Shown here piece after piece: positions 11,828-25,091 of a stretch of 64,000 bases of DNA. The number at the start of each line of letters is the position of its first letter. Position 1 is the stretch's first letter. The position numbers were made by a program, and so were the translations under genes. This DNA comes from Sphingosinithalassobacter sp. CS137 (lineage in GTDB: Bacteria > Pseudomonadota > Alphaproteobacteria > Sphingomonadales > Sphingomonadaceae): the NCBI RefSeq assembly GCF_014334115.1, contig NZ_CP060494.1, forward strand, positions 3,130,163-3,194,162, in the 5' to 3' direction. Under the pieces are notes generated by a model. It made no database searches and was not told the DNA's origin. It saw only the letters and a list, made by a program, of their open reading frames with translations.

Positions 11828-13196
11828 AGGCTTCGCGATACCGTTTGACGACGCGCAGCGCGACGATGTTGAGAAGGAGCGTGACCAGGAACAGCGTAAG
11901 CCCGAGCGCGAAGGCGGCGAGCGTCTTCGGGCTGTCGAACTCCGCCTCGCCGGTCAGCAGATCGACGATCTGCTTGGTCACGGTGGTCGTGCTCTCGAAC
12001 GGATTGAGCGTGATGTTGGCCGCGCCGGATGCGGCCATCACCACGATCATCGTCTCGCCGATCGCGCGGCTGACGGCGAGCAGGATGCCCGCCATCACGC
12101 CGGGCAGTGCCGCGGGCAGCAGCACGCGGCGAATCGTTTCCGATGTCGTCGCGCCCATCGCCAGGCTGCCGTCGCGCATCGCGCTGGGCACTGCGGCGAT
12201 CGAATCGTCGGCCATCGACGAGACGAACGGGATGATCATCACCCCCATTACAACGCCGGCCGCCAGCGCGCTTTCCGACGAGGCATAGGTATAGCCAAGC
12301 GACACCGCGAGATCGCGCACCGCCGGCGCGACGGTGAGCGCGGCGAAATAGCCGTAGACGACCGTGGGCACGCCGGCGAGGATCTCCAGGATCGGCTTCA
12401 TCCAGCGGCGCACCCGCGGTGCGGCATATTGGGTGAGATAGATCGCGCTCATCAGCCCGAACGGGATGGCGACGATCATCGCGATCACCGCGCCGATGAA
12501 GAAGGTGCCCCAGAACAGCGGAACCGCGCCCAGCGTCTCGCCCGGATCGGCGGGGTCGATCACCTGCGGACTCCACAGCGTGCCCAGCAGGAAATCGGTG
12601 ATCGGTACGATCGAGAAGAAGCGCAGCGATTCCCACAGCAGCGACAGGAAGATGCCGACAGTCGTCAGGATCGCGATCAGCGAGGCGATCAGCAGCAGCA
12701 GCATCACCGAGCGCTCGACGCGCGAGCGCGCCTTGAAGCCCGCCTGAACCCGTGTGTACGCGAAGGCGCCGCCGGCGAAGGCGAGCACGATCGCCAGCGC
12801 GGTGCCGATCCAGGCATAGCGCGTCTGCGCCGCCGCCATCACCGGGGCAAGCTGCTCGGCAAGCGGGTTGAACGCACCCGCATCGGGATTGGCGGCGAGG
12901 CGCGAGGCTTCGCTCAGCACGGCGTCGCGCTCGAAGGCGAAAGCGGGAAGCTCGGCCGCGGCGGGATGCTGCATCACCGCCTCGCTCACGAGTCCGGTGC
13001 TGACGACGCTCCAGATGCCGAGGAAGATCAGCGGCGGCACGATCGTCCAGATCGCGACGTACCAGCCGTGCTGCGAGGGCAGTGAATGCAGCCGCTTCTG
13101 CCGGCCGCGATCGAAGCCGGCGGCGCGGGTGCGCGCCGTCAGCCAGCCGATCAGGCCCAGGCCGCCGATCAGGATCAGCAGGAGGTAAAAGTTCAC
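11820..13196 (-). CDS. pstC: Phosphate ABC transporter permease PstC with enlarged N-terminus
   Basis: Second permease of the Pst importer, 458 residues against about 320 in E. coli. After an N-terminal helix (NFYLLLILIGGLGLIGWL) and two more hydrophobic stretches comes a long insertion, then the permease core with the coupling loop DDSIAAVPSAMRDGSLAMG. It sits 55 bases downstream of pstS and overlaps pstA, so the permeases are made together. The extra N-terminal region probably faces the periplasm, but that is inferred. Confidence 0.94.
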   Translation of the reverse strand: MNFYLLLILIGGLGLIGWLTARTRAAGFDRGRQKRLHSLPSQHGWYVAIWTIVPPLIFLGIWSVVSTGLVSEAVMQHPAAAELPAFAFERDAVLSEASRLAANPDAGAFNPLAEQLAPVMAAAQTRYAWIGTALAIVLAFAGGAFAYTRVQAGFKARSRVERSVMLLLLIASLIAILTTVGIFLSLLWESLRFFSIVPITDFLLGTLWSPQVIDPADPGETLGAVPLFWGTFFIGAVIAMIVAIPFGLMSAIYLTQYAAPRVRRWMKPILEILAGVPTVVYGYFAALTVAPAVRDLAVSLGYTYASSESALAAGVVMGVMIIPFVSSMADDSIAAVPSAMRDGSLAMGATTSETIRRVLLPAALPGVMAGILLAVSRAIGETMIVVMAASGAANITLNPFESTTTVTKQIVDLLTGEAEFDSPKTLAAFALGLTLFLVTLLLNIVALRVVKRYREAYE

Positions 13197-13251
13197 GGCA
13201 GCGTCGACTCGAGCAAGAGTTGGATGCGTGGGCGAATGGCGGCGACCATGG

Positions 13252-14280
13252 TCACTGCAGTTCGGCGGGATCGAGCGGGATGCGCTGTTCGATGATCTCG
13301 GCAGAACGCTGCCGGACCTCGGCGGGGGCGGCGATCATGCCGCGGCGGACGAGCTCGCCGTCGGGGCCCCACATGGTCGAGAACAGCCGCAGATATTCCG
13401 GAAGGCCCGGAACCGCGTTCATGTGCTTGTCCTTGACGTAGAGGAACAGCGGGCGCGCGCCCGGATATTCGCGCGCGGCGATCGTGTCGTAGCTTGGCTC
13501 GACGCCGTCGATCGGCACGCCGCGCAGGCGATCCTGATTCTCCTCCAGATAGCTGTAGCCGAAGATGCCGATGGCATTGGGGTTCGCGGCGAGCTTCTGG
13601 ACGATCAGATTGTCGTTCTCGCCCGAATCGATGTAGGCGGCGTCGCTGCGTACCCGGATGCAGACATTCTCCTGCTGCTCGTCCTCGAGCTGCTCGGCTT
13701 CCGAATATGCCTCCAGGCAGCCCGGCTCCATGATCAGCTCCGCCAGCGCATCGCGCGTGCCGCTGGTCGACGGCGGGCCGTAGACCGCGATCGGCACGTC
13801 GGGCAGCGAGGGGTTCACGTCGCGCCAGGTGCGCGCGGTGTTCGGCTGGCCGCGCGGATTGGCGGCCAGGGCGAGATAGACGTCCTTCTTGGTGAGCTGC
13901 ATCTGCGGCCCCTGAAGCGACTCGGCGAGCGCCACGCCGTCCATGCCGATCTGCACTTCCATGATATTGCCGACGGCGTTGGCCTGGCAGCGGGCATATT
14001 CGCTCGCCTTGATGCGGCGCGAGGCGTTCGCGATGTCGGGGAAATCCGGCCCGATGCCGTCGCAGAAGCGATCGATGCCGCCGCCGGTGCCGATCGATTC
14101 GATGACCGGCGCGGACCGGCTGGGGTCCTGATTGACATACGCCTCGGCGACGGCAGTCGTGAACGGATAGACCGTGGACGAGCCGACTGCCTTGATCTGG
14201 TCGCGCACGCCGCCGCTGTCGCCGCACGCCGACAGCGCCACCGCCGCCGTTGCGATAATAGCCAGCCTGCCGAGCATCAC
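13252..14280 (-). CDS. pstS: Phosphate-binding lipoprotein PstS
   Basis: Periplasmic phosphate receptor of the Pst transporter, 342 residues. The signal peptide ends in a lipobox, ALSAC, making Cys19 the lipidated residue. Phosphate-binding motifs are VGSSTVYPFT near the N-terminus and STSGTRDA in the middle. A candidate Pho box lies about 80-95 bases upstream, inside the 3' end of phoR, so pstS probably has its own inducible promoter in addition to read-through from phoR. Confidence 0.94.
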   Translation of the reverse strand: MMLGRLAIIATAAVALSACGDSGGVRDQIKAVGSSTVYPFTTAVAEAYVNQDPSRSAPVIESIGTGGGIDRFCDGIGPDFPDIANASRRIKASEYARCQANAVGNIMEVQIGMDGVALAESLQGPQMQLTKKDVYLALAANPRGQPNTARTWRDVNPSLPDVPIAVYGPPSTSGTRDALAELIMEPGCLEAYSEAEQLEDEQQENVCIRVRSDAAYIDSGENDNLIVQKLAANPNAIGIFGYSYLEENQDRLRGVPIDGVEPSYDTIAAREYPGARPLFLYVKDKHMNAVPGLPEYLRLFSTMWGPDGELVRRGMIAAPAEVRQRSAEIIEQRIPLDPAELQ

Positions 14281-14358
14281 TGTCTCCTGGAATTGGGAAG
14301 CAAGGTGGAGCGCCGCATGGGGATGGCACTCGTTCGCGCCCGCCTCTGTTGCAGCACG

Positions 14359-14376
14359 GTTACGTCTTCATGACAC
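14359..14376 (-). promoter_or_regulatory. Candidate Pho box ahead of pstS
   Basis: On the minus strand GTGTCAT-N4-ACGTAAC, two imperfect 7-base direct repeats with an 11-base period, as in PhoB sites (CTGTCAT-N4-CTGTCAC). It matches six and about five of seven positions. It overlaps the last codons of phoR and lies about 80 bases upstream of pstS, the most strongly PhoB-controlled gene of such clusters. Confidence 0.4.
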
Positions 14377-15582
14377 CCCATGCGGAGGCAGTAGCACAGA
14401 TACGGTCGTTCCCTTGCCCGTCTCGCTGCTAATGTCCATTCGGCCGCGGTGGCGCTCGACGATGTGCTTGACGATCGAAAGGCCCAATCCGGTGCCGCCC
14501 ATGGCGCGACTCCGGCCCGAATCGACTCGGTAGAAGCGCTCGGTGAGCCGCGGGATATGCTCGAGCGCGATTCCCTCGCCTTCGTCGGTGACGGTGATCG
14601 TCACCATCGACGGCGTCTCCTGGCGCAGCGTGACCGTGACGGGCGTGCCTTCCCGGCCGTATTTCATGGCATTTCCGACGATGTTGTGCAGCACCTGGCT
14701 CAGCTGCGCGCGATCCCCGCGAACCGGAGGAACGTCATGAATGACGGTGCACAGGTCGGTCGCGCGCGCGTCGGCGGTGGCGGAAAGCTCGGCGCGGACC
14801 TCCTCGATCAGCCCCGCGAGATCGACCGACTGGTCGGGCGCGCGATATTTCTCCGCTTCGATTCGCGACAGCGACATCAAGTCGTCGATCAGCCGCTGCA
14901 TGCGCTTGGCTTCGTCGTGCATGATTCGCAGGAAACGGTTGCGCACCGCCGGATCGTCGCCCGCTTCCTCGCCCAACGTCTCGATATAGCCGAGCAGGGA
15001 GGCCAGCGGAGTGCGCAGCTCGTGGCTGGCATTGGCGACAAAATCGACTCGGATGCGGTCGGCGGCATAGCTGCCGGTGCGGTCGATCAGATGCACGATC
15101 CGCTGGCCGAAGCCGACATTGCGCACCCGCATCTCCCACCGCTGCTCGCGCGTGCCCAGGCCGACGAGGTGGATCGGCGCACCCGGGGTCTGGTCGTCGG
15201 GCTTCAGCAGGCGCTCGGCCGCCGCCGGGTGGCGGATCGCCAGCCGGACGTCCTGATCGAGAATATGTCGGCCGAGCAGCGCACGGGCGGCGCGGTTCGC
15301 CGAAACCACTCGATTTTCCACCACGATCAGAACGGGCTCGGCGATCGCCTCGATCACTTCGGTCATCGGCGGCGCTGGAAGCGCTTCGGCAGGAGGCGGC
15401 GCCGCCCGCGCGGTCCGGTTTTCCGATTCGGGTGTTCCCAGCGCCACGAGCGCGGCCACAACCGCGCACACCAGCACGATCATGCTGGCCTCGACATTGG
15501 CCGTGACGACAAAGCTCATCAGCGCCGCGAGCCCGGCGATCGCCAGTGCCGTCAGTCCACGCAATCCTCGGGGGGTCACCAT
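14368..15582 (-). CDS. phoR: Phosphate regulon sensor histidine kinase PhoR
   Basis: Membrane-anchored kinase that phosphorylates PhoB in low phosphate. 404 residues: two N-terminal helices (about 8-28 and 33-50), a PAS-like region (about 75-165), the dimerisation domain with H187 in ANASHELRTPL, and the ATPase domain with N-box HNIVGNAMKYG, DEGEG and GGTGLGLSIVKH. No large periplasmic domain, as expected for PhoR, which gets its signal through PhoU and Pst. First gene of the cluster; divergent from the Tat-signal gene at 15672. Confidence 0.94.
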   Translation of the reverse strand: MVTPRGLRGLTALAIAGLAALMSFVVTANVEASMIVLVCAVVAALVALGTPESENRTARAAPPPAEALPAPPMTEVIEAIAEPVLIVVENRVVSANRAARALLGRHILDQDVRLAIRHPAAAERLLKPDDQTPGAPIHLVGLGTREQRWEMRVRNVGFGQRIVHLIDRTGSYAADRIRVDFVANASHELRTPLASLLGYIETLGEEAGDDPAVRNRFLRIMHDEAKRMQRLIDDLMSLSRIEAEKYRAPDQSVDLAGLIEEVRAELSATADARATDLCTVIHDVPPVRGDRAQLSQVLHNIVGNAMKYGREGTPVTVTLRQETPSMVTITVTDEGEGIALEHIPRLTERFYRVDSGRSRAMGGTGLGLSIVKHIVERHRGRMDISSETGKGTTVSVLLPPHGVS

Positions 15583-15671
15583 CGCGTCTCCTCTAGCCGA
15601 AGTTTTCGCGGTCGCGGTAGGCGCTTCGATGCTTTACCTTTGCGAAAGACCGATCGGGCACAAGGACAGCG

Positions 15672-16067
15672 ATGGCGGACGAAGCACCTCCCGAACCGCA
15701 AGGCACCACACGCCGCCGCGCGCTGATGCTGGGCGCCGCGGGGGCGACGGCGATCGTCTCGATTCGCCCGGCACTCGCGCAGACCAGCGCCTCGGTGATG
15801 AACTGCGAGATTCCCGTCCCCGATCCGGGCCGCGCGGGCAATTATATCGCGCCCGACGGATCGCTGGTGCCGCCGGGCACGCCGGGCGCGTTTCCGCCCA
15901 CCGGCATGTCGTTCAAGGGCGAGGACGTGAAGCGGGCGCTGTCGGGCGGCACGCTGCCGGGCACCACCTATGAGCAGAGCCGCGCCTATACCAACTACAT
16001 CCGCCGGCTTCAGTCGGGCACCAGCGGCTTCACTTGCTTCGCTTCGCTGCAGATGCCGCGCGGCTGA
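15672..16067 (+). CDS. Tat-exported small protein, possibly linked to the PqqD/HprK-like cluster
   Basis: A 131-residue protein with a twin-arginine signal (TTRRRALMLGAAGATAIV, then a likely AxA cleavage site at PALAQ near 34-36). The mature part of about 95 residues has two cysteines (C45, C122) and a Gly/Pro-rich centre (IAPDGSLVPPGTPGAFPP). I recognise no enzyme family. It lies 79 bases ahead of the PqqD-like gene on the same strand, so it may be a member or a substrate of that system; adjacency is the only evidence. Confidence 0.75.
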   Translation: MADEAPPEPQGTTRRRALMLGAAGATAIVSIRPALAQTSASVMNCEIPVPDPGRAGNYIAPDGSLVPPGTPGAFPPTGMSFKGEDVKRALSGGTLPGTTYEQSRAYTNYIRRLQSGTSGFTCFASLQMPRG

Positions 16068-16146
16068 GGCGCCTGGGCTTTCCGCATTGCTCGGTTGAAG
16101 TGAAGGGCAGTGCCTCATCCGGCTCGGCACGAAGGGGGAAGGAGCC

Positions 16147-16422
16147 GTGACCGCCATTCGCTATCGCGCTGCCGATGCCGCGACGCTGCGGATCGTGCCG
16201 CTCGACGCGCTGACTTTGGTGTTCCACCGCGCTTCCGGCATCACGCATGTCGTCGACTCGCCTGTTCCCGAGATCCTCGAGGCGCTGGGAGAGGAGGTGC
16301 TGACCGCGCCCGATCTTCTGGGTCGTCTGACCGCCCGCTACGAGCTGAGCGACGCCGATCCGGTCGCGCTGGCGGTGCGGCTGGACGAACTGGCTGCGGC
16401 CGGGCTGGTGGAGCGGCTGTGA
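16147..16422 (+). CDS. PqqD-like protein (HPr-rel-A system type)
   Basis: A 91-residue winged-helix-like protein. PqqD relatives act as peptide chaperones that present a ribosomal peptide to a modifying enzyme. The pattern VVDSPVPEILEAL, LTAPDLLGRLTARYEL and VALAVRLDELAAAGLVERL is that of the fold. In known families this variant occurs next to an HprK-related kinase, which is exactly the neighbour here (overlap GTGA at 16419-16422). Start is GTG after a GGGGGAAGGAG stretch. The peptide partner, if any, is unknown. Confidence 0.8.
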   Translation: MTAIRYRAADAATLRIVPLDALTLVFHRASGITHVVDSPVPEILEALGEEVLTAPDLLGRLTARYELSDADPVALAVRLDELAAAGLVERL

Positions 16423-17279
16423 GGCACGCGGCATCGCTTCGAATCGGCCCGATCGGCTTTCGGATCGGCAGCGATTGGCGCGGTCCGGTCGCCGCCGTGC
16501 GCGCGCTCTATTCCGACTATCCGCAGCCCGACGACGATATCCCCGATTTCAACGTCCATCTTTTCGCGGCGCGGCCGTGGCGGCGGGTGCTGCGCCCGTC
16601 GGTCCAGATCGGCGGCGACTTCGTCATTCCCGATGCCGCCCCGCTGCCGCTGGCGCAGGGGCTGCTCGCCGCCGAGATGGGGATGAACCTCCAGATGGCG
16701 CTCGGCCAGCGGCGCTATCTGCTGCTCCATGCGGCCACTGCCGAGCGCGAGGGGCGGGCGATCCTGATGACCGGCATCTCGGGCGCGGGTAAATCGACGC
16801 TGGCGGCGCTGCTGATGGCGCGCGGCTGGCGGCTGATGGGTGACGAGTTCGCGCTCGTCGATCCGGCGACCGGCCGTGTCCACGCCTTTCCCCGGCTGGT
16901 CAGCCTGAAGAACGAAGGCATTGCCGTGGCCGAGGCGGCGCTGCCGCAGGCGCGCTTCGGTCCGCGGCTGGAGGGTACGCCCAAAGGCGCGATCCGCCAT
17001 CTCGTGCCCGATGCGCGCGCGATCGCCGCAATGGCCGAGCCGGCCGATCCCGCGCTGATCCTGTTCCCGCGCTTCGGCTTCGAGGTGGCCGAGCGGCCGG
17101 TGCTGCCGAGCGAGACCTTCGTTCGGCTGACTCAGGCGTCGACCAACTATACCGCGCTCGGCGAACGCGGGTTCGAATCGCTCACTCGGCTGGTGCGCGA
17201 CGTGCCCGCGCGGGCGATCGACTATCCCGACGCGCAGACCGCGCTCGCCCACATCGAGCGCATCTGGAGCGTCTTGTGA
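16419..17279 (+). CDS. HprK-related kinase (HPr-rel-A type)
   Basis: A 286-residue P-loop protein related to the C-terminal domain of HPr kinase/phosphorylase. Walker A is GISGAGKST at 119-127 and an acidic Walker-B-like motif is LMGDEFALVD at 139-148. The N-terminal 110 residues are specific to this subfamily. The substrate is unknown; no HPr gene is nearby, so classical carbon-catabolite control is unlikely. Start is GTG overlapping the PqqD-like stop, and its own stop overlaps the next GTG in the same way, so three proteins are translationally coupled. Confidence 0.85.
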   Translation: MRHAASLRIGPIGFRIGSDWRGPVAAVRALYSDYPQPDDDIPDFNVHLFAARPWRRVLRPSVQIGGDFVIPDAAPLPLAQGLLAAEMGMNLQMALGQRRYLLLHAATAEREGRAILMTGISGAGKSTLAALLMARGWRLMGDEFALVDPATGRVHAFPRLVSLKNEGIAVAEAALPQARFGPRLEGTPKGAIRHLVPDARAIAAMAEPADPALILFPRFGFEVAERPVLPSETFVRLTQASTNYTALGERGFESLTRLVRDVPARAIDYPDAQTALAHIERIWSVL

Positions 17280-18286
17280 GGCACGACGGCCGCCTCCTCG
17301 CCGCCGCGCTGCGCGATCCCGGCTCGACCGCCGCGCTCGATTTCGCCGGCTGGACCGCATTGCTTGCCATCGCGCGCGCCGAGCAGCTGCTCGGCACGCT
17401 CGCGCATCGGCTCGAAGGATTGCCGATTCCCGAGGCGGTTCGCCGCATCCTTGCCGACGCGCGCGCTTCGGCCGAGCAGGGGCGCGTCGTCGCGCTGTGG
17501 GAAGCGGAGATGGCGCGTCGCGCGCTGGCGCCGAGCGGAATGCCGGTGATGCTGCTCAAGGGTACCGCCTTCGTCGCGGCGGGCCTTTCGGCAGGGCGCG
17601 GGCGCCAGATCGGCGACCTCGACATATTGGTGCCGCGCGACCGGATCGACGAAGCCGAAACCGCGCTGATCGCGGCGGGATGGGAATGGGTGAAGCCCGA
17701 TCCCTATGATGACGCCTATTACCGGCGCTGGATGCACGAGTTGCCGCCGCTGATTCATCGCGAGCGTGACCGGATGATCGACGTGCATCACACGATCCTG
17801 CCGCTCACTGCGCGGATCACGCCCGATGCCGCCGCGATGCTGGCCGATGCGCGCCCGCTGGCGAACGGACTGCGCATCCCTTCGCCCGAGGATCTGCTGT
17901 GCCACGCCGCCGCGCATCTCTTCGCCGACGGCGATCTGGCGGGTGGCATGCGCAATCTGTGGGACATCCACTGCCTGCTCGACGAGTTCGACGGCTCGGG
18001 CTTTGCCGAGCGGCTGGAAGCGCGCGCCAGGCTGCATGGGCTGGAGGCGGAGATGGCCCGCGCGCTGCGGCTGCGGGCGGCCCTCTATACCGGCGAGCGG
18101 TCGAGGCTGGTCGGGGCGGATCGTCTCTATCTGCGCCGGTTGACTGCGCGCGATGGATGGGGACGCCAGATCCGGAAGGCCACTCGCCTCGGCTTCTACA
18201 TCCGGTCGCACTGGCTGCGGATGCCGCCGCATCTGCTGGCGCGGCATCTCTGGACCAAGTTCAGGAAGGGCCATTCGCCAGGCTGA
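17276..18286 (+). CDS. Nucleotidyltransferase-family protein of the HPr-rel-A cluster
   Basis: A 336-residue protein with the nucleotidyltransferase motif: LLKGTAF near 93-99 and GDLDILV near 113-119, where D114 and D116 would bind metal. The layout matches the uncharacterised nucleotidyltransferase family (NTP_transf_5 type). Its start overlaps the kinase stop (GTGA), so it is part of the same system. It may transfer a nucleotide to a protein or small molecule; the target is not apparent. Its 3' end overlaps the converging gph gene by 26 bases. Confidence 0.8.
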   Translation: MRHDGRLLAAALRDPGSTAALDFAGWTALLAIARAEQLLGTLAHRLEGLPIPEAVRRILADARASAEQGRVVALWEAEMARRALAPSGMPVMLLKGTAFVAAGLSAGRGRQIGDLDILVPRDRIDEAETALIAAGWEWVKPDPYDDAYYRRWMHELPPLIHRERDRMIDVHHTILPLTARITPDAAAMLADARPLANGLRIPSPEDLLCHAAAHLFADGDLAGGMRNLWDIHCLLDEFDGSGFAERLEARARLHGLEAEMARALRLRAALYTGERSRLVGADRLYLRRLTARDGWGRQIRKATRLGFYIRSHWLRMPPHLLARHLWTKFRKGHSPG

Positions 18287-18944
18287 GCAGCGTCGGGACC
18301 AGCTCGTCGAAGTGATCGATCACTGCGTCCGCGCGCAGATCCTCGACCGGGCCGAGCAGAAAGCCGAAGCTGACTGCGATCGCCGGAACGCCTGCGTTCC
18401 GCGCCGCGCCCATGTCGTAGATCGAATCGCCCACGAACGCCGCGCGGCCGCCGCCGCAGCGGCGGATCATCTCGTCGATCGGAGCGCGATGCGGCTTGGC
18501 GAAGCCCTTGCCCATCGTGTCGCCGCCGATCAGGCAGGCGAAGCGCTCGCGCAGGCCGAGCGCGCCGAGCAGCTTTTCGGCGAAGCCTTCGAACTTGTTG
18601 GTGACGACGGCGGTGGTCACGCCCAGCGCGTCGAGCCGGTCGAGTGCGTCGATCATGCCCGGAAAGGGCCGAGTGCCGTCGGCGATATGCTCCTCATAAT
18701 GGCCGAGCAGCAGCTTGTAGAGGCGGCGGAACTCGTCGTCCGGGCATCCGCCGGTCGCATCGAGCGCCTGGCGCAGCATGTTCTTCGCGCCGCCGCCCAC
18801 CATCGGCACCACGTCGGCGGACGTCAGCAGCGGGCGCTCCGCCGCGGCGAGCGCATGGTTCACGGCGGCGGTCAGGTCGGCGCTGGTGTCCAGCAGGGTT
18901 CCGTCCAGATCGAAGCCGACGATGTCGAAGGGGAAGGATGCCAT
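18261..18944 (-). CDS. gph: Phosphoglycolate phosphatase (HAD superfamily)
   Basis: Hydrolyses 2-phosphoglycolate, a product of DNA end repair and oxygenation side reactions. HAD motif I is FDLDGTLLDTS near residue 10-20 with the catalytic Asp pair, motif II is TTAVVTNK, and motif III/IV is FAKPHRAPIDE with FVGDSIYDMGAARNAG. At 227 residues it matches Gph. Other sugar-phosphate substrates cannot be excluded. It stands alone on the minus strand, converging with the cluster on its left and divergent from glmU. Confidence 0.88.
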   Translation of the reverse strand: MASFPFDIVGFDLDGTLLDTSADLTAAVNHALAAAERPLLTSADVVPMVGGGAKNMLRQALDATGGCPDDEFRRLYKLLLGHYEEHIADGTRPFPGMIDALDRLDALGVTTAVVTNKFEGFAEKLLGALGLRERFACLIGGDTMGKGFAKPHRAPIDEMIRRCGGGRAAFVGDSIYDMGAARNAGVPAIAVSFGFLLGPVEDLRADAVIDHFDELVPTLLSLANGPS

Positions 18945-19018
18945 GGCGGCGCTGGTGCCAGCATCGCTATGGAATTGGCAAGGAGATCATGGCAGGGGCA
19001 GGGCTTCAGGAGGCTTGC

Positions 19019-20371
19019 ATGACCACGCCGGTAGCCGCCGTGATCCTTGCCGCGGGCAAGGGGACGCGGATGAAATCCGATCTCCACAAGGTGCTCCATC
19101 CGATCGCCGGACGGCCGATGCTGCTGCATCTCGTCGCCAGCGTGGGCGCGCTGGCACCCGAGCGGACGATCGTCGTCGTCGGCGCCGGGCGCGAGCAGGT
19201 CGAGGCGGCGGTACACCCGCATGGCGCCGAGACGGTGCACCAGGCCGAACAGCTCGGCACCGGCCATGCCGTCGCGCAGGCGGAAGCACCGCTCGCCGGT
19301 TTCGCGGGCGACGTCCTGATCCTCTATGGCGATGTGCCGCTGGTGACGCCCGCCACGATGCGGCGGATGCTCGATCGGCTGCACGGCGACGATGCGCCCG
19401 CCGCCGTCGTGCTCGGCTTTCGCCCCGCGGATCCGGGCGCCTATGGCCGCGTGATCGCCGATCCCGACGGGCGGATCGCGAAGATGGTCGAGTTCAAGGA
19501 CGCGACCGCGCAGGAGCGCGCGGAGACGCTCTGCAACTCGGGACTGATGGCGGTTCGTTCCGCAGACCTGTTTGCACTGCTTAAGCGGGTAGGCAACGAC
19601 AACGCCGCCGGCGAGTATTATCTGCCCGATATCGTCCTGCTCGCCGCTGCCGACGGCCGCCACAGCGCTGTGATCGAAACCGACGCGCGGGAAGTGGCGG
19701 GTGTGAACAGCCGCGGCGAGCTGGCGGCGCTCGAATCCGAATGGCAGTCGGCCCGCCGCGCGCGCGCGATGGCCGAGGGCGCCACCTTGACTGCGCCCGA
19801 AACCGTGTGGTTCGCGCACGATACGGCGATCGGCCGCGACGTGACGATCGGGCCCAATGTGGTGTTCGGACCCGGCGTGGCGATCGCCGACGGTGCGACG
19901 ATCCACGCCTTCTGCCACATCGAAGGCGCGACGATCGGGTCGGGCGCATCGGTCGGCCCCTTCGCGCGGCTGCGCCCCGGCACGCAGCTGGGCGAGGGCG
20001 CGCGGATCGGCAATTTCGTCGAGACGAAGAAAGCGGTTCTCGGCAAGGGTGCGAAGGCGAACCACCTCACCTATCTGGGCGATGCGGCGATCGGCGCCGG
20101 CGCCAACATCGGCGCCGGGACGATCACCTGCAACTATGACGGGTTCGGCAAATACGGCACGGAGATAGGGGCGGGGGCCTTCGTCGGATCGAACACTGCG
20201 CTTGTCGCCCCCGTCTCGGTGGGCGCGGGCGCGATGATCGGTGCCGGGTCGGTGATCACCGCGAATGTCGAAGCCGATGCGCTGGCCGTGGCGCGCGGCA
20301 CGCAGGAGGCGCGGCCCGGCTGGGCCCGACGCTTCCGCGAGCGCATGGCCGCACGGAAAGGAAGCACATGA
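19019..20371 (+). CDS. glmU: Bifunctional UDP-GlcNAc pyrophosphorylase / glucosamine-1-P acetyltransferase
   Basis: Last two steps of UDP-GlcNAc synthesis, feeding peptidoglycan, lipopolysaccharide and the amino-sugar genes later in this window. 450 residues. The N-terminal uridylyltransferase has LAAGKGTRMKSDLHKVLH; the C-terminal left-handed beta-helix has GNFVETKKA and TITCNYDGFGKYGTEIG with acetyl-CoA-site residues. The start MTTPVAAVI is preceded by AGGAGG; the open frame upstream is not GlmU. Its stop overlaps the next gene (ATGA). Confidence 0.96.
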   Translation: MTTPVAAVILAAGKGTRMKSDLHKVLHPIAGRPMLLHLVASVGALAPERTIVVVGAGREQVEAAVHPHGAETVHQAEQLGTGHAVAQAEAPLAGFAGDVLILYGDVPLVTPATMRRMLDRLHGDDAPAAVVLGFRPADPGAYGRVIADPDGRIAKMVEFKDATAQERAETLCNSGLMAVRSADLFALLKRVGNDNAAGEYYLPDIVLLAAADGRHSAVIETDAREVAGVNSRGELAALESEWQSARRARAMAEGATLTAPETVWFAHDTAIGRDVTIGPNVVFGPGVAIADGATIHAFCHIEGATIGSGASVGPFARLRPGTQLGEGARIGNFVETKKAVLGKGAKANHLTYLGDAAIGAGANIGAGTITCNYDGFGKYGTEIGAGAFVGSNTALVAPVSVGAGAMIGAGSVITANVEADALAVARGTQEARPGWARRFRERMAARKGST

Positions 20372-20679
20372 CCGATCGTTACGAAGGCAAGCCGTTCCTC
20401 AAGCTCCTCGACAGCTACGTCCTCGATGCGATCGACGCGCTCGACACCACCGCCGAGGCGGCGCTGACCGCGATCGAGCCGCAGCTGCGCGACAGCTATG
20501 GCGTGCAGGGAAGCTGGCGCGAGATCGTGGTGCGCGAGATGCAGTTTCCCGAAGGGATGCAGGGTGCGATCCGCGAAGTCTGGGAGAAGGGCCGGGTGCG
20601 GTTCGTCCAGACGGTCGGCAAGGAGCCCGATCCGGTCGAATTCGCCCGCACCTTCGTCGACACCAATTTCCCCCGCTGA
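20368..20679 (+). CDS. Conserved small protein between glmU and glmS
   Basis: Unrecognised 103-residue, largely helical cytoplasmic protein, acidic, starting MTDRYEGKPFLKLLDSYVLD. No signal peptide, membrane segment or catalytic motif. It overlaps the glmU stop by four bases (ATGA) and lies 21 bases ahead of glmS, so it is made together with both amino-sugar enzymes. A role connected with amino-sugar synthesis is only a guess from position. Confidence 0.85.
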   Translation: MTDRYEGKPFLKLLDSYVLDAIDALDTTAEAALTAIEPQLRDSYGVQGSWREIVVREMQFPEGMQGAIREVWEKGRVRFVQTVGKEPDPVEFARTFVDTNFPR

Positions 20680-20700
20680 CCGAAAAGGAACGCCAAGCGC

Positions 20701-22524
20701 ATGTGCGGTATTGTCGGTATTCTGGGCGCGGAAGACGTCGCCGGTCGCTTGTTCGACGGGCTGAAACGGCTCGAATATCGCGGCTATGACTCGGCCGGAA
20801 TCGCGACGCTGCACGACGGCGCGATCCTGCGCCGCCGCGCCGAGGGCAAGCTGGCGAAGCTGGGCGCGCGGCTGGCGGAGGATCCGCTGCCCGGCACGAT
20901 CGGCATCGCGCACACTCGCTGGGCGACGCACGGCGCGCCGACCGAGGACAATGCGCACCCGCACATCGTCGGCGACGTCACGATCGTTCACAACGGCATC
21001 ATAGAGAATTTCAAACCGCTGCGCGACGAACTCATCGCCGACGGGCGCACGTTCAACAGCCAGACCGACACCGAAGTGGTCGCGCATCTGGTGGACCGTG
21101 AACTCAAGGCGGGCAAGTCGCCGCAGGACGCTGTCGCCGCGGTGCTGCCGCGCCTGCACGGCGCGTTCGCCATTGCCTTTCTGTTCGCGAACCAGCCCGA
21201 TCTGCTGATCGCCGCGCGGCAGGGCGCGCCGCTGACCGTCGGCTATGGCGAGGGCGAGAATTACCTCGGTTCGGACGCGCATGCGCTGGCGGGGCTGACC
21301 CAGCGCATCGCCTATCTCGACGAAGGCGACTGGGCGGTGCTGACGCGCACCGACATCGAGGTGTATGACCGCGACAATCGCCCGGTCACGCGCGCGATCG
21401 TGCCGTCGGGCGTGTCCCCGGCGATGATCGACAAGGGCAATCACCGCCACTTCATGCTGAAGGAAATCTTCGAGCAGCCGGTGGTGGTGGCGCAGACGCT
21501 CGCGTCGTACGTCCGGCCCGTCGAGCAGCGCGTGGCGCTGCCCGACATGGCGTTCGATCTGGCGGGCACCGAGCGCGTGGCGATCGTCGCCTGCGGCACC
21601 GCCAGCTATGTCGGGATGATCGGCAAATACTGGATCGAGCGGTTCGCGCGGCTCCCGGTCGAAATCGATGTCGCGTCCGAGTTCCGCTATCGCGATCCGG
21701 TGCTGCTGCCGAACACGCTCGGCGTCGTCGTCAGCCAGTCGGGCGAGACCGCCGACACGCTGGCGGCGCTGCGCCACATGAAGGCGAACGGCGTGACCAC
21801 CGCCGGCATCATCAACGTGCCGACCAGCTCGATGGCGCGTGAGGTCGATCTGCTGCTGTCGACGCATGCCGGGCCGGAAATCGGCGTCGCCTCGACCAAG
21901 GCGTTCACCTGCCAGCTCGCGGTCATGGCCGCGCTCGCGGTCAATCTCGCTCGGGCCAGGGGGCTGTTGTCGGAAGGCGAAGAGCGCGAGATCGTCCGCC
22001 ATCTGCTCGAGGCGCCCGCCGCGATCAACGCCGCGCTCCAGCACGATGCCGAGATCGAGGCGATGGCGCATACCATCGCCGGTGCCCGCGACGTGCTGTA
22101 TCTGGGCCGCGGTCCGGAATATCCGATGGCGCTCGAAGGCGCGCTGAAGCTCAAGGAAATCAGCTACATCCATGCCGAGGGCTATGCCTCGGGCGAGATG
22201 AAGCACGGGCCGATCGCGTTGATCGACGATTCCGTGCCGCTGATCGTGCTGGCGCCGTCGGGGCCGCTGTTCGACAAGACCGTCTCGAACATGCAGGAGG
22301 CGCAGGCGCGCGGCGCGCAGGTGGTGCTCATCAGCGATGCCGAGGGGCTCGCCCAGGCCGGCGAGGACGCGATGGCGACGATCGAAATGCCCAAGGTGCA
22401 TCCGCTGATCGCGCCGCTGGTCTATGCGGTGCCGGTCCAGCTGCTCGCCTATCATGTCGCGGTCGCCAAGGGCACTGACGTCGACCAGCCGCGCAACCTA
22501 GCCAAATCCGTCACCGTCGAATAG
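20701..22524 (+). CDS. glmS: Glutamine-fructose-6-phosphate aminotransferase
   Basis: Makes glucosamine-6-phosphate from fructose-6-phosphate and glutamine, the entry step of UDP-GlcNAc synthesis. 607 residues. The mature protein starts CGIVGILGAE, so Cys2 is the glutaminase nucleophile after Met removal. Two SIS domains follow (GTASYVG, SQSGETADTLAALR, and GRGPEYPMALEGALKLKEIS), and it ends with the conserved DVDQPRNLAKSVTVE. I see no glmS ribozyme upstream, as expected outside Gram-positives. Confidence 0.97.
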   Translation: MCGIVGILGAEDVAGRLFDGLKRLEYRGYDSAGIATLHDGAILRRRAEGKLAKLGARLAEDPLPGTIGIAHTRWATHGAPTEDNAHPHIVGDVTIVHNGIIENFKPLRDELIADGRTFNSQTDTEVVAHLVDRELKAGKSPQDAVAAVLPRLHGAFAIAFLFANQPDLLIAARQGAPLTVGYGEGENYLGSDAHALAGLTQRIAYLDEGDWAVLTRTDIEVYDRDNRPVTRAIVPSGVSPAMIDKGNHRHFMLKEIFEQPVVVAQTLASYVRPVEQRVALPDMAFDLAGTERVAIVACGTASYVGMIGKYWIERFARLPVEIDVASEFRYRDPVLLPNTLGVVVSQSGETADTLAALRHMKANGVTTAGIINVPTSSMAREVDLLLSTHAGPEIGVASTKAFTCQLAVMAALAVNLARARGLLSEGEEREIVRHLLEAPAAINAALQHDAEIEAMAHTIAGARDVLYLGRGPEYPMALEGALKLKEISYIHAEGYASGEMKHGPIALIDDSVPLIVLAPSGPLFDKTVSNMQEAQARGAQVVLISDAEGLAQAGEDAMATIEMPKVHPLIAPLVYAVPVQLLAYHVAVAKGTDVDQPRNLAKSVTVE

Positions 22525-22530
22525 CGCGGG

Positions 22531-22887
22531 CTAGGCCAGCACGCGCTCCAGCGCCGCCGCCAGATCGGCTTCGCGATAGGGTTTGCCGAGCAACGGCACG
22601 CCTTCTTCGAAGCCCGCGGGTGCATTGCCGTAGCCGCTGGCGAAGACGAACGGGATGCCGCGCGCCCGCAGCGCCGCGGCGATCGTGTCGCTGCGTTCGC
22701 CCGCCAGGTTGATGTCGAGAACGGCGGCGTCCGCCTGCGCGTCGCGGGCGAGCGCCAGTCCCTCGGCGAGCCGTCCGGCGGGGCCGATCACGCTGCACCC
22801 AAGCGCCATCAGCATGTCTTCGAGGCACATTGCGACGACCGGCTCGTCCTCGACGATCAGCACGCGGATTCCGGCAAGGCGGCTCAT
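22531..22887 (-). CDS. Single-domain response regulator
   Basis: A 118-residue receiver with no output domain: acidic cluster E13-D14-E15, phosphoacceptor D58 in AVLDINLAG, and K102 in LGKPYR. Its ATG overlaps the stop of the upstream HWE kinase (ATGA), so it is the obvious phosphorylation partner. DINLAGERSDTIA is typical of receivers paired with HWE/HisKA_2 kinases. The start MSRLAGIRVL is set by that overlap; the upstream open frame is antisense-like filler. It converges with glmS six bases away. Confidence 0.9.
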   Translation of the reverse strand: MSRLAGIRVLIVEDEPVVAMCLEDMLMALGCSVIGPAGRLAEGLALARDAQADAAVLDINLAGERSDTIAAALRARGIPFVFASGYGNAPAGFEEGVPLLGKPYREADLAAALERVLA

Positions 22888-25091
22888 GCGGCCGCGCTCG
22901 GGATCGGCGCTTCGACGGTGCAGCGCAGCCCCTCCGGATCGAAGTGGATCGTGACGCTGCCGCTCAGCTCGGCGGCCAGTCCGCGCTCGATCATCCGCGT
23001 GCCGAAACCGCGGCGTTCGGGGTGGCGCACGGGCGGTCCGCCGCGCTCGGTCCATTCGAGCAGCAGTCGGTCCGCGTCGCGGCTCCAGCGGATCGTCACC
23101 GCTCCCTCGGCCACCGAAAGCGCACCGTGCTTGACGGCGTTGGTCGCCAGTTCGTGCACCGCAAGCGCCAGCGAGATCGCGGTCTTGGGGGCGAGCGCCA
23201 GGTCCGGCCCGTCGAGCAGGAAGCGGCCTTCGCCGCCGCCGTGCGGCGCGACCGCGTCGCTGATGATCCGCGCCATCGAAACCGGCGACCAGTGTTCGCG
23301 CGTGAGCAGGTTGTGCGCTTCGGACAGCGCCGCCAGCCGCCCCTCGAACGCGGCGCGCGCCGCCGCCATGTCTTCCTCGTTGCGGAAGGTCTGCTGCGCA
23401 ATGCCCTGGACGATCGCCAGCGTGTTCTTCACCCGGTGGTTGAGTTCGTCGATCAGCAGCCGCTGATGCGCCTCGAACCGCTTGGCTTCGGTCACGTCGC
23501 GCGCGATCGCGTGCAGCCCGGTCACGGTGCCGTCCTCTTCGTCGGACGTGAGCTGTGAATTGACTTCCCAGACCAGCTCGCGCCCGTCGCTCGAGCGCAC
23601 GCGGATCGTGTGCCGCGTGGTCCCGCCCTCGATCAGCTTGCGCCGGAGCATCTCGCGGCTTTGGGCGAACTGGTCCGCGTCCATGAAATCGCCGATCGAG
23701 CGGCCGACGAGCTGATCCTCGGCATAGCCGAGTGCGGCGAGCAGGGCGGGGTTCACCGACGTGATCCGGTGATCGAGATCGCAGGTGATCAGATAATCGT
23801 TCGCCTGTTCGAAGATCGTGCGGAAGCGCGCCTCGCTGGCGCGCAATTCCTGTTCGGCGCGCTTGCGCGTGGTGACGTCGAACGACACGCCCACGAACCG
23901 CCGGGCGCGCTCCTCGCCCTGCTCGATGCAGCTTCCATGGCTCTGCAGCCAGCGCTCCTCGCCCGTATCGGCCCGGTGGATCCGATATTCGATCGTGAAG
24001 GGGCTCGAATCGTCGAAGCAGCCGAAGGCAGCCGCGCGCACCGCTTCGCGATCGTCGGGGTGGACGCGCGCCAGCCAGTCGTCGACCGAGCCCTCTCCGG
24101 CCGGATGGCGCTCGAGTCCAAGAAGATCAAACCGGTTTGCGGACCAGACTCCGCTCATCGAGGCGAGATCGAGTTCCCAGGTCGCCATGCCCGCACATTC
24201 GACGGCGAGGCGGATGCTCTCCTCGCTCTTGCGCAGCGCCATCTCGTTCGCGCGCCGATCGGTGACGTCGATCGTCACCGCCAGAACGCCATAGGGTTCG
24301 CCGGTCTCGCGGCGGAGGACCGCAACCGAATTGTTCACCCACACGATCTCGCCGTCGCTGCGGACATAGCGCTTCTCGAGCACGAACGGCACGCGCTCGC
24401 GAATGGCGCGATCGAACAGCTTCTGGTTCCTGCCGAGGTCGTCCGGATGCGTGATCGACTGCATCGTCCGGTTGAGCAGCTCCGCGCGCGTCCAGCCGGA
24501 GATCGCGCAGAAGCGGTCGTTCACCAGCGTGAACCGGCCGCTCAGATCGGTCTGGGCGAAGCCTGCCGTCGCCTGATTGACGAAGGCGGAAAGTTGCGCC
24601 TCGCGCTCGCGCAGCGCGAGTTCGGCTTCCTTCGCCTCGGTCACGTCGTGGGCGACGCCGATGAAGCCGATATGCCGTCCCCGCGCGTCGCGTCGCGGCT
24701 GCGATACCGACCGCAGCCAGCGCCAGCTGCCGTCGCCGCGGCGATAGCGGCCCTCGAGCGTAAAGGTCTGCAGACCGGCTTCGCCGGCAATCGACTCCGC
24801 GACGATACGATCCCGATCGTCGGGGTGAATGATCGTGCGCCAATCGAACACCAGTGCCGCGGGATAGTCGACGCCGAGGAAATCCAGATAGGCACGGTTC
24901 ACGAAGCTGCGGGTCCGGTCGAGGCGAGTCACCCAGATCGGCACCGGTGCGCTGTCGGCGATCAGGCGAAATTCGTCCTCGCCGCTGGGCCGCGGCTCAT
25001 CCCCCGGCAGGGGATCGGCAGCAGGCTCTTCACTATACTCCGAACTGGCCATCGTCCCGGTGGTAGTGCGGTTCCGCGATGAATCAATCAT
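22884..25091 (-). CDS. Multi-PAS sensor histidine kinase, HWE family
   Basis: Soluble sensor kinase of about 735 residues with no membrane segment. Four PAS domains with PAC tails come first (roughly 40-160, 165-285, 290-415 and 415-535), then the HWE-type transmitter: DELNHRVKNTLAIVQ with the phosphorylated His near 552, HELATNAVKHG, the WTE motif in LLLEWTERGGPPV, and GFGTRMIERGL. No GxNCRFLQ, so not a LOV light sensor; the PAS ligands are unknown. Two starts are possible (25091 or 25052), neither with a strong ribosome site. It is coupled to the receiver gene downstream. Confidence 0.9.
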   Translation of the reverse strand: MIDSSRNRTTTGTMASSEYSEEPAADPLPGDEPRPSGEDEFRLIADSAPVPIWVTRLDRTRSFVNRAYLDFLGVDYPAALVFDWRTIIHPDDRDRIVAESIAGEAGLQTFTLEGRYRRGDGSWRWLRSVSQPRRDARGRHIGFIGVAHDVTEAKEAELALREREAQLSAFVNQATAGFAQTDLSGRFTLVNDRFCAISGWTRAELLNRTMQSITHPDDLGRNQKLFDRAIRERVPFVLEKRYVRSDGEIVWVNNSVAVLRRETGEPYGVLAVTIDVTDRRANEMALRKSEESIRLAVECAGMATWELDLASMSGVWSANRFDLLGLERHPAGEGSVDDWLARVHPDDREAVRAAAFGCFDDSSPFTIEYRIHRADTGEERWLQSHGSCIEQGEERARRFVGVSFDVTTRKRAEQELRASEARFRTIFEQANDYLITCDLDHRITSVNPALLAALGYAEDQLVGRSIGDFMDADQFAQSREMLRRKLIEGGTTRHTIRVRSSDGRELVWEVNSQLTSDEEDGTVTGLHAIARDVTEAKRFEAHQRLLIDELNHRVKNTLAIVQGIAQQTFRNEEDMAAARAAFEGRLAALSEAHNLLTREHWSPVSMARIISDAVAPHGGGEGRFLLDGPDLALAPKTAISLALAVHELATNAVKHGALSVAEGAVTIRWSRDADRLLLEWTERGGPPVRHPERRGFGTRMIERGLAAELSGSVTIHFDPEGLRCTVEAPIPSAAA

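Follow-up and report, generated by a model that had tools for sequence, protein, structure and literature searches.

The stretch of DNA analysed in our study, hereafter the window, comprises 64,000 nucleotides of the genome of Sphingosinithalassobacter sp. CS137 (contig NZ_CP060494.1, positions 3,130,163 to 3,194,162), and it carries on its forward strand a cassette of four co-directional genes: three enzyme genes and, directly upstream of them, a small gene whose product is a candidate substrate for the enzymes. The first enzyme gene (16147-16422) encodes a PqqD-like RRE protein of 91 residues, which scores 52.7 bits against the curated cut-off of 35 of TIGR04353 (PqqD_rel_X). The second (16419-17279) encodes an HprK-related kinase A, with 241.2 bits against the cut-off of 200 of TIGR04352 (HprK_rel_A), and the third (17276-18286) a nucleotidyltransferase-family protein of 336 residues, with 179.3 bits against the cut-off of 31.2 of PF14907 (NTP_transf_5), a family of which we take PsmN, from the pseudomycoidin cluster, to be a member. 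Inspection of the sequence places an overlapping GTGA at 16419 and another at 17276, joining the three genes, and the translations of the kinase and the nucleotidyltransferase contain the motifs GISGAGKST, GDEF and GDLDILV. The first-pass annotation, made from the sequence alone, had described these three genes, their overlaps and their motifs, and had assigned them to the HPr-rel-A system; the reading frames, the sequence and the family scores, which are far beyond chance, confirm the description, and the assignment holds because the kinase and its PqqD partner both exceed the curated cut-offs and their genes are adjacent and overlapping.

The same annotation considered the system to have no known substrate and suggested searching neighbourhoods for a fourth gene that always travels with the other three. 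Such a gene, overlooked earlier, lies in the same direction at 15672-16067; it has relatives upstream of the kinase and co-occurs with it at the genome level. The statement about the substrate needs revision, as this candidate lies directly upstream of the enzymes and practically all of the kinase-bearing genomes that were examined have it. Its product, here called the precursor, has 131 residues and no significant match in Pfam or NCBIfam, where only weak TAT-signal and stray hits were obtained. Two parts of it are of particular concern: the leader core, residues 14-36 (RRRALMLGAAGATAIVSIRPALA, 15711-15779), which is a putative export signal and the proposed PqqD-binding part, and the C-terminal motif TCFASL (T121-L126, 16032-16049), which is the proposed modification site, with S125 as the most likely residue.

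Co-occurrence of the precursor and the kinase

Special attention was given to counting the kinase only above its curated cut-off, since at E <=0.001 the model also matches generic HprK (283 of 296 genomes). Under this rule, HprK_rel_A is present in 126 of 296 Sphingomonadales genomes, and a profile of 20 precursors (alignment A1, 20 rows) matches 125 of the 296. Both are found in 125 genomes, the kinase alone in one, the precursor alone in none and neither in 170; these genomes are mutually related, so the Fisher value for this table is no true probability, and A1, like the alignment used for other lineages (A4), includes genomes later searched. The sole kinase-only genome (G036) has, by eye, a precursor with the tail GISCIHSWIDYIRW, located upstream of the kinase, and two genomes counted among the 170 (G006 and G093) hold a precursor together with a kinase just below the cut-off, at 187.8 and 197.7 bits, respectively. 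In 13 genomes (G035, G053, G080, G097, G119, G167, G202, G215, G236, G240, G267, G268, and G291) the precursor is present but unlinked, at a distance of over 80 kb from the kinase or on a separate contig; as 12 of them belong to one genus, they represent two lineages only, and five of the 13 cases are different contigs of draft assemblies, a split also seen in G045 and G262, which were left uncounted. The PqqD gene stays with the kinase in G035 and G119 and lies beside the precursor in G053.

Organisms with both genes were also identified outside Sphingomonadales. In a set of 398 genomes from the phylum, 61 hold the kinase and 48 of these 61 lie outside the order; a profile of 19 precursors from outside the order (A4, drawn from 19 of 30 loci) matches 39 of the 398, all of them kinase-positive. 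The profile recognizes 37 of the 48 kinase genomes outside the order and none of the 337 kinase-negative genomes; with ten further cases recognized by eye, a leader-bearing protein is present in 47 of the 48, and in the remaining one the contig ends. Four kinases that seemed to stand alone (L129, L131, L132, and L138) come from genomes that hold the precursor on another contig or, in G428, in divergent orientation beside the kinase. Although the nucleotidyltransferase gene is not adjacent to the kinase in 14 of the 30 loci outside the order, four of which end within 360 bases (L123, L134, and L138) or otherwise short of flank, all 14 genomes hold a PF14907 match above the cut-off, against 2 of 14 control genomes.

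At the level of individual loci, 126 of 141 (107 of 111 in Sphingomonadales and 19 of 30 elsewhere) have a reading frame with the leader and a [STC]CxxS motif no more than 2.2 kb upstream of the kinase; the weak HprK-like match of the window genome (L002) was excluded from the 141. All 126 loci with a leader-bearing frame carry the motif in that same frame. Under the same rule, leader and motif together appear in 0 of 76 downstream, 1 of 139 antisense and 2 of 78 further-upstream controls, and the leader alone in 2 of 76, 10 of 139 and 9 of 78; an earlier, stricter leader rule found 114 of 141 loci, with 0 of 75 and 4 of 141 in its controls. The rule was written after viewing 14 loci (within L003-L038) and L113-L142 and was then loosened, and because some loci shaped it in this way the count of 126 of 141 is not independent and the genome-level test is the stronger one. 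Three loci missed by the rule (L118, L120, and L123) do carry a precursor, and in L092 the precursor lies about 4 kb away. When the four proteins of the window were searched by tblastn against 112 loci, the kinase was found in all 112, the nucleotidyltransferase in 109, PqqD in 85 and the precursor in 83; 24 of the 29 loci without a precursor match are the distant relatives L003-L026, and a diverged protein of the precursor design is present in 23 of these 24, the exception being L005.

Architecture of the precursor

The N-terminal leader of the precursor is of the twin-arginine type and is soon followed by a Cys; the C-terminal tail is conserved. The RR pair of the leader is invariant in 20 of 20 precursors in A1 and in 19 of 19 in A4. 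Among 52 Sphingomonas-type sequences (alignment A2, the window and 51 of 76 distinct relatives; a further alignment, A3, holds the window and 21 of 80 loci), the mean pairwise identity is 0.97 at residues 30-36 (SIRPALA) and 0.98 in the tail, residues 116-131, against 0.67 in the middle of the protein. Over 137 precursors the tail motif reads [ST]-C-[WFLVYI]-x-S-[FILVYM], in which the selection rule partly determines the S/T, C and S but not the hydrophobic positions; in the precursors of G036 and G006 the last position is W and A, respectively. The motif lies at a median of 6 residues from the end of the protein, and at most 25 residues from it in 133 of the 137. Most tail codons vary synonymously while the residue stays constant, and the codon of S125 is itself nearly invariant (TCG in 77 of 78).

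Precursor lengths range from 82 residues (L139) to about 270, and only the leader, the Cys after it and the tail motif are common to all of them. In the shortest one, which has PqqD, kinase and nucleotidyltransferase genes beside it, the core amounts to about 20 residues. A constant leader and a constant site, combined with a variable body, is the pattern that a dedicated modification system would be expected to select. Variants of the gene arrangement were also observed. A second, unlinked paralogue of the precursor, with a leader of the same type and a tail reading GISCxxSI, is present in each of two loci (L208:8993-9604 and L209:8803-9423) and by eye lies near a sigma-factor-like gene; the L006 cassette has two precursor copies, one on each side of a PqqD-like reading frame; and the precursor at L013:475-1059 has a long SSSSHDSG-type repeat in its variable middle.

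Conservation of the enzymes

The first-pass annotation had made its proposal depend on the co-occurrence of the homologues and on the conservation of their catalytic residues across the family. The homologues co-occur across loci and genomes, as reported above, and the residues are conserved: H104, K125, S126, T127, D142, E143, K164, and N165 are kept in 141 of 141 kinases, and among the 125 nucleotidyltransferases found in the loci K95 and G96 are kept in 124 and D114, D116, and D169 in 123. Kinase residues 89-145, comprising the His, the Walker A motif and the Asp region, align with HprK structures (PDB 1jb1, phmmer E 0.0031); no relative of the nucleotidyltransferase was found in the PDB sequence search (best E 0.41). 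A PqqD-like RRE protein was identified in 138 of the 141 loci by a self-trained model, which was built on 102 of the same loci and whose match in L005 looks false. One kinase reading frame, in L135 (G475:C392:66024-66863), extends to 708 residues and may be fused to its neighbour.

Comparison with known systems

The similarity to HPr kinase/phosphorylase is limited to kinase residues 89-145. The window genome has one HprK_rel_A above the cut-off and one weak HprK-like match at contig position 588813; its sole PTS-HPr match, at 590567-590806, lies beside the latter, about 2.6 Mb from the cassette. Since the HPr of this genome sits with another HprK-like gene, the cassette kinase is not needed for it. 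The genome-wide search found no HPr gene adjacent to the cassette, and no radical-SAM gene or exporter was seen among the adjacent reading frames by eye, in agreement with the first-pass annotation. The cassette belongs to HPr-rel-A by curated score, but the two models cover only the kinase and its PqqD partner and leave the precursor family unmatched. Name searches of the open-access literature for HPr-rel-A, HprK-related kinase, TIGR04352, TIGR04353, PqqD_rel_X, and HprK_rel_A, with subscription papers and preprints outside their scope, returned no paper that contains these names.

The nearest experimental systems come from Bacillota. In the LPP (linear polyphosphorylated peptide) system, according to the available text of its description, a discrete RRE binds the precursor, whose N-terminal region is conserved and whose remainder varies, and the kinase phosphorylates a Ser in the precursor core; the clusters, like those of paeninodin, are often near capsule or other polysaccharide loci (PMC13381572). 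The cassette has the same enzyme trio, an RRE protein, an HprK-like kinase and an NTP transferase, and its precursor has a similar layout. LPP differs in that, by the same text, its clusters include an SpI-like peptidase dedicated to the leader as well as an MsbA-like exporter, its leader has a YxxP motif and its phosphate is on core Ser3 (PMC13381572), whereas the cassette leader is a twin-arginine-type signal ending in A-x-A and the conserved site is C-terminal. By eye, no such peptidase or exporter is present among the window reading frames from 12000 to 24000, and the neighbour clusters listed as recurrent over 40 regions include none; one ABC-exporter-like gene was seen in L187. The LPP leader motif YxxPxVLxHQxIxFETxxS is absent from the aligned precursor leaders, which read RRxLLKGxxxxxPxxxTL or RRRALMLGAxxASAIVSIRPALA.

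Lasso clusters such as those of paeninodin and pseudomycoidin also use a PqqD-like B1 protein; as far as the available text of the cited work goes, the Ser that paeninodin kinases phosphorylate is C-terminal, and the hexoses found on the phosphate of pseudomycoidin require PsmN (PMC8498205, PMC9266682). The precursor of the cassette is larger than those of these clusters and apparently an exported protein, and no lasso cyclase (C), B2 protease or transporter was seen by eye at the window cassette. By their defining features, the cassette is therefore neither an LPP nor a lasso cluster. It probably works like these modification systems, with an unusual precursor, and the best reading by analogy is that of a proteobacterial counterpart of the LPP and paeninodin systems of Bacillota, in which the precursor leader doubles as an export signal.

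Proposed mechanism and alternatives

Our study favours, as the probable explanation, a four-gene modification-and-export cassette that acts on the product of its fourth gene. The chemical steps, the export route and the role that we infer for it are as follows. The product of the fourth gene would serve as the precursor, its N-terminal leader doubling as a twin-arginine-type export signal, and the PqqD-like protein would bind the highly conserved end of this leader and hold the precursor for the enzymes, as its RRE family and the conservation of the leader suggest. The HprK-like kinase would phosphorylate a hydroxyl in the C-terminal [ST]CxxS, most likely that of the invariant Ser, S125, and the nucleotidyltransferase-family protein may then extend this phosphate by a nucleotide or, in the manner reported for PsmN in pseudomycoidin, by a sugar; by analogy, the tag is most likely a phosphate and perhaps a sugar. 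Leader binding, C-terminal phosphorylation and the later elaboration are proposed because the nearest experimental systems use the same enzymes. The modified precursor would be exported through the twin-arginine (Tat) pathway and cut after ALA36 by the general signal peptidase, a disulfide between Cys45 and Cys122 may close the exported product, and the product would act in the envelope or matrix, a role suggested by the XrtA/exopolysaccharide genes found close to the cassette in most other lineages. The first-pass annotation had proposed the modification of a peptide or protein presented by the PqqD-like partner; the evidence fits this proposal and supplies it with a candidate precursor, while the modification itself is still a prediction.

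Several observations weigh against this reading. The assignment to Tat rather than Sec rests on the invariant RR, because PF10518 (TAT_signal) matched few precursors, 4 of 20, and weakly (best E 0.011). In the AlphaFold model of the precursor (mean pLDDT 65.8, pTM 0.51), which is too weak to interpret, confidence is good for the middle and low for the leader and the tail. No XrtA/exopolysaccharide marker lies within about 8 kb of the cassette in any of 80 Sphingomonas-type loci. LppN had no effect in the published expression system, according to the available text (PMC13381572), and the chemistry of the N proteins is unsettled. The tail motif is absent from two profile-matched genomes (G395 and G419), in which the match covers the leader only, and from a second class of leader-bearing protein, found upstream of the kinase in 10 genomes outside Sphingomonadales; in these organisms the modification site would differ or lie elsewhere. 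This second class (L179, L181, L182, L187, L193, L194, L196, L197, L231, and L232) has features of its own: several members have a C-[ST]-x-S-G stretch after the leader, and CSxSG- and SPGxW-type stretches occur in several.

The alternative that survives best, although we regard it as unlikely, is nucleotidylation without a sugar, in which a nucleotide such as AMP is placed on the precursor, or the enzymes act on different residues, and the mark serves as a switch for folding or export instead of a glycan linkage. NTP_transf_5 retains the KG...DxD and the third Asp of a nucleotidyltransferase, and a review considers that PsmN might be a true nucleotidyltransferase, with the sugar coming from a host enzyme; nevertheless, it is hexoses that sit on the phosphate in the closest experimental system (PMC8498205, PMC9266682), and no nucleotidylated precursor is reported in the available text of the work cited on related systems. 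A further possibility, which we judge rather improbable, is that the precursor is a carrier with a recognized leader, whose CxxS is a redox, metal or thiol attachment site, and that the kinase acts on the leader or the body. It is consistent with a motif Cys as conserved as the Ser, with the second Cys after the leader, with the conservation of T/S residues in the leader, and with the second-class proteins, which keep the kinase and the leader without the tail motif.

Genomic context

In the window, PhoR-like and pst phosphate-uptake genes lie next to the cassette in divergent orientation, and its other neighbours are HAD-phosphatase, glmU and glmS genes. The XrtA gene of this genome is far from the cassette, at contig position 925141. 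In other lineages the cassette is usually close to XrtA-type genes: among 19 regions from outside Sphingomonadales (of 20 fetched, L198 being too short), BLAST identified at least one XrtA/PEP-CTERM exopolysaccharide marker in 16 and at least two in 12, and a marker passed its curated NCBIfam cut-off in 12 of the 19; the acyltransferase of L187 gave no match at the threshold of the curated-family scan. At least two markers are also present in 5 of 14 further Sphingomonadales regions, which were hand-picked, and the kinase and an XrtA gene are separated by about 3-14 kb in at least 12 genomes from four families (G003, G007, G010, G015, G017, G027, G038, G054, G063, G069, G075, and G095). Within Sphingomonadales, an XrtA match (E <=1e-25) is found in 120 of the 126 kinase genomes and in 112 of the 170 others. 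This linkage parallels the capsule-locus setting of LPP and paeninodin. An XrtA amidotransferase was also observed near the cassette in three loci (L183:11478-13382, L185:12054-13940, and L199:3804-5699); with 256-292 bits against the lasso-cyclase cut-off of 525, it is a sub-cut-off relative of that family.

A more specific form of the proposed role is a protein-linked glycan, in which the kinase and the nucleotidyltransferase-family protein would together place a phosphodiester-linked sugar on the C-terminal Ser of a Tat-exported protein, and this protein would then anchor, prime or organize XrtA-type exopolysaccharide at the cell surface; we hold this version to be doubtful as it stands. 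Least probable of all is that the kinase and the nucleotidyltransferase regulate other targets, such as phosphate sensing or exopolysaccharide enzymes, with the exported protein as a signal or effector and not a substrate: a divergent PhoR-like kinase gene does lie upstream in 75 of 80 Sphingomonas-type loci (the PhoR labels denote similarity, and the one relative tested is below the curated cut-offs) and exopolysaccharide genes are nearby elsewhere, but the PqqD-like RRE protein in nearly every locus and the strict conservation of the leader would be left unexplained.

Upstream of the precursor gene, a 15-base element at 15633-15647, on the forward strand, ends 24 bases before the gene. A pattern fitted to the element occurs upstream of the precursor gene in 47 of 78 relatives, with no further match in these loci, although it was fitted to the same regions and an earlier, strict pattern matched 1 of 78; a pattern similar to the element has one match in the whole genome. 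No classical Pho box was seen by eye between the PhoR-like gene and the precursor gene.

Significance

Our study places an enzyme set known only by the names its curators gave it in a cellular context and offers specific candidates for its substrate and for the site of modification, and the function of the system is now directly testable. If the proposed cassette is real, modification by a kinase, an RRE protein and a nucleotidyltransferase would reach beyond small lasso and LPP peptides to exported proteins of widespread Proteobacteria, an export signal would double as a recognition leader, and this type of modification would be tied to extracellular polysaccharide loci in both Bacillota and Proteobacteria.
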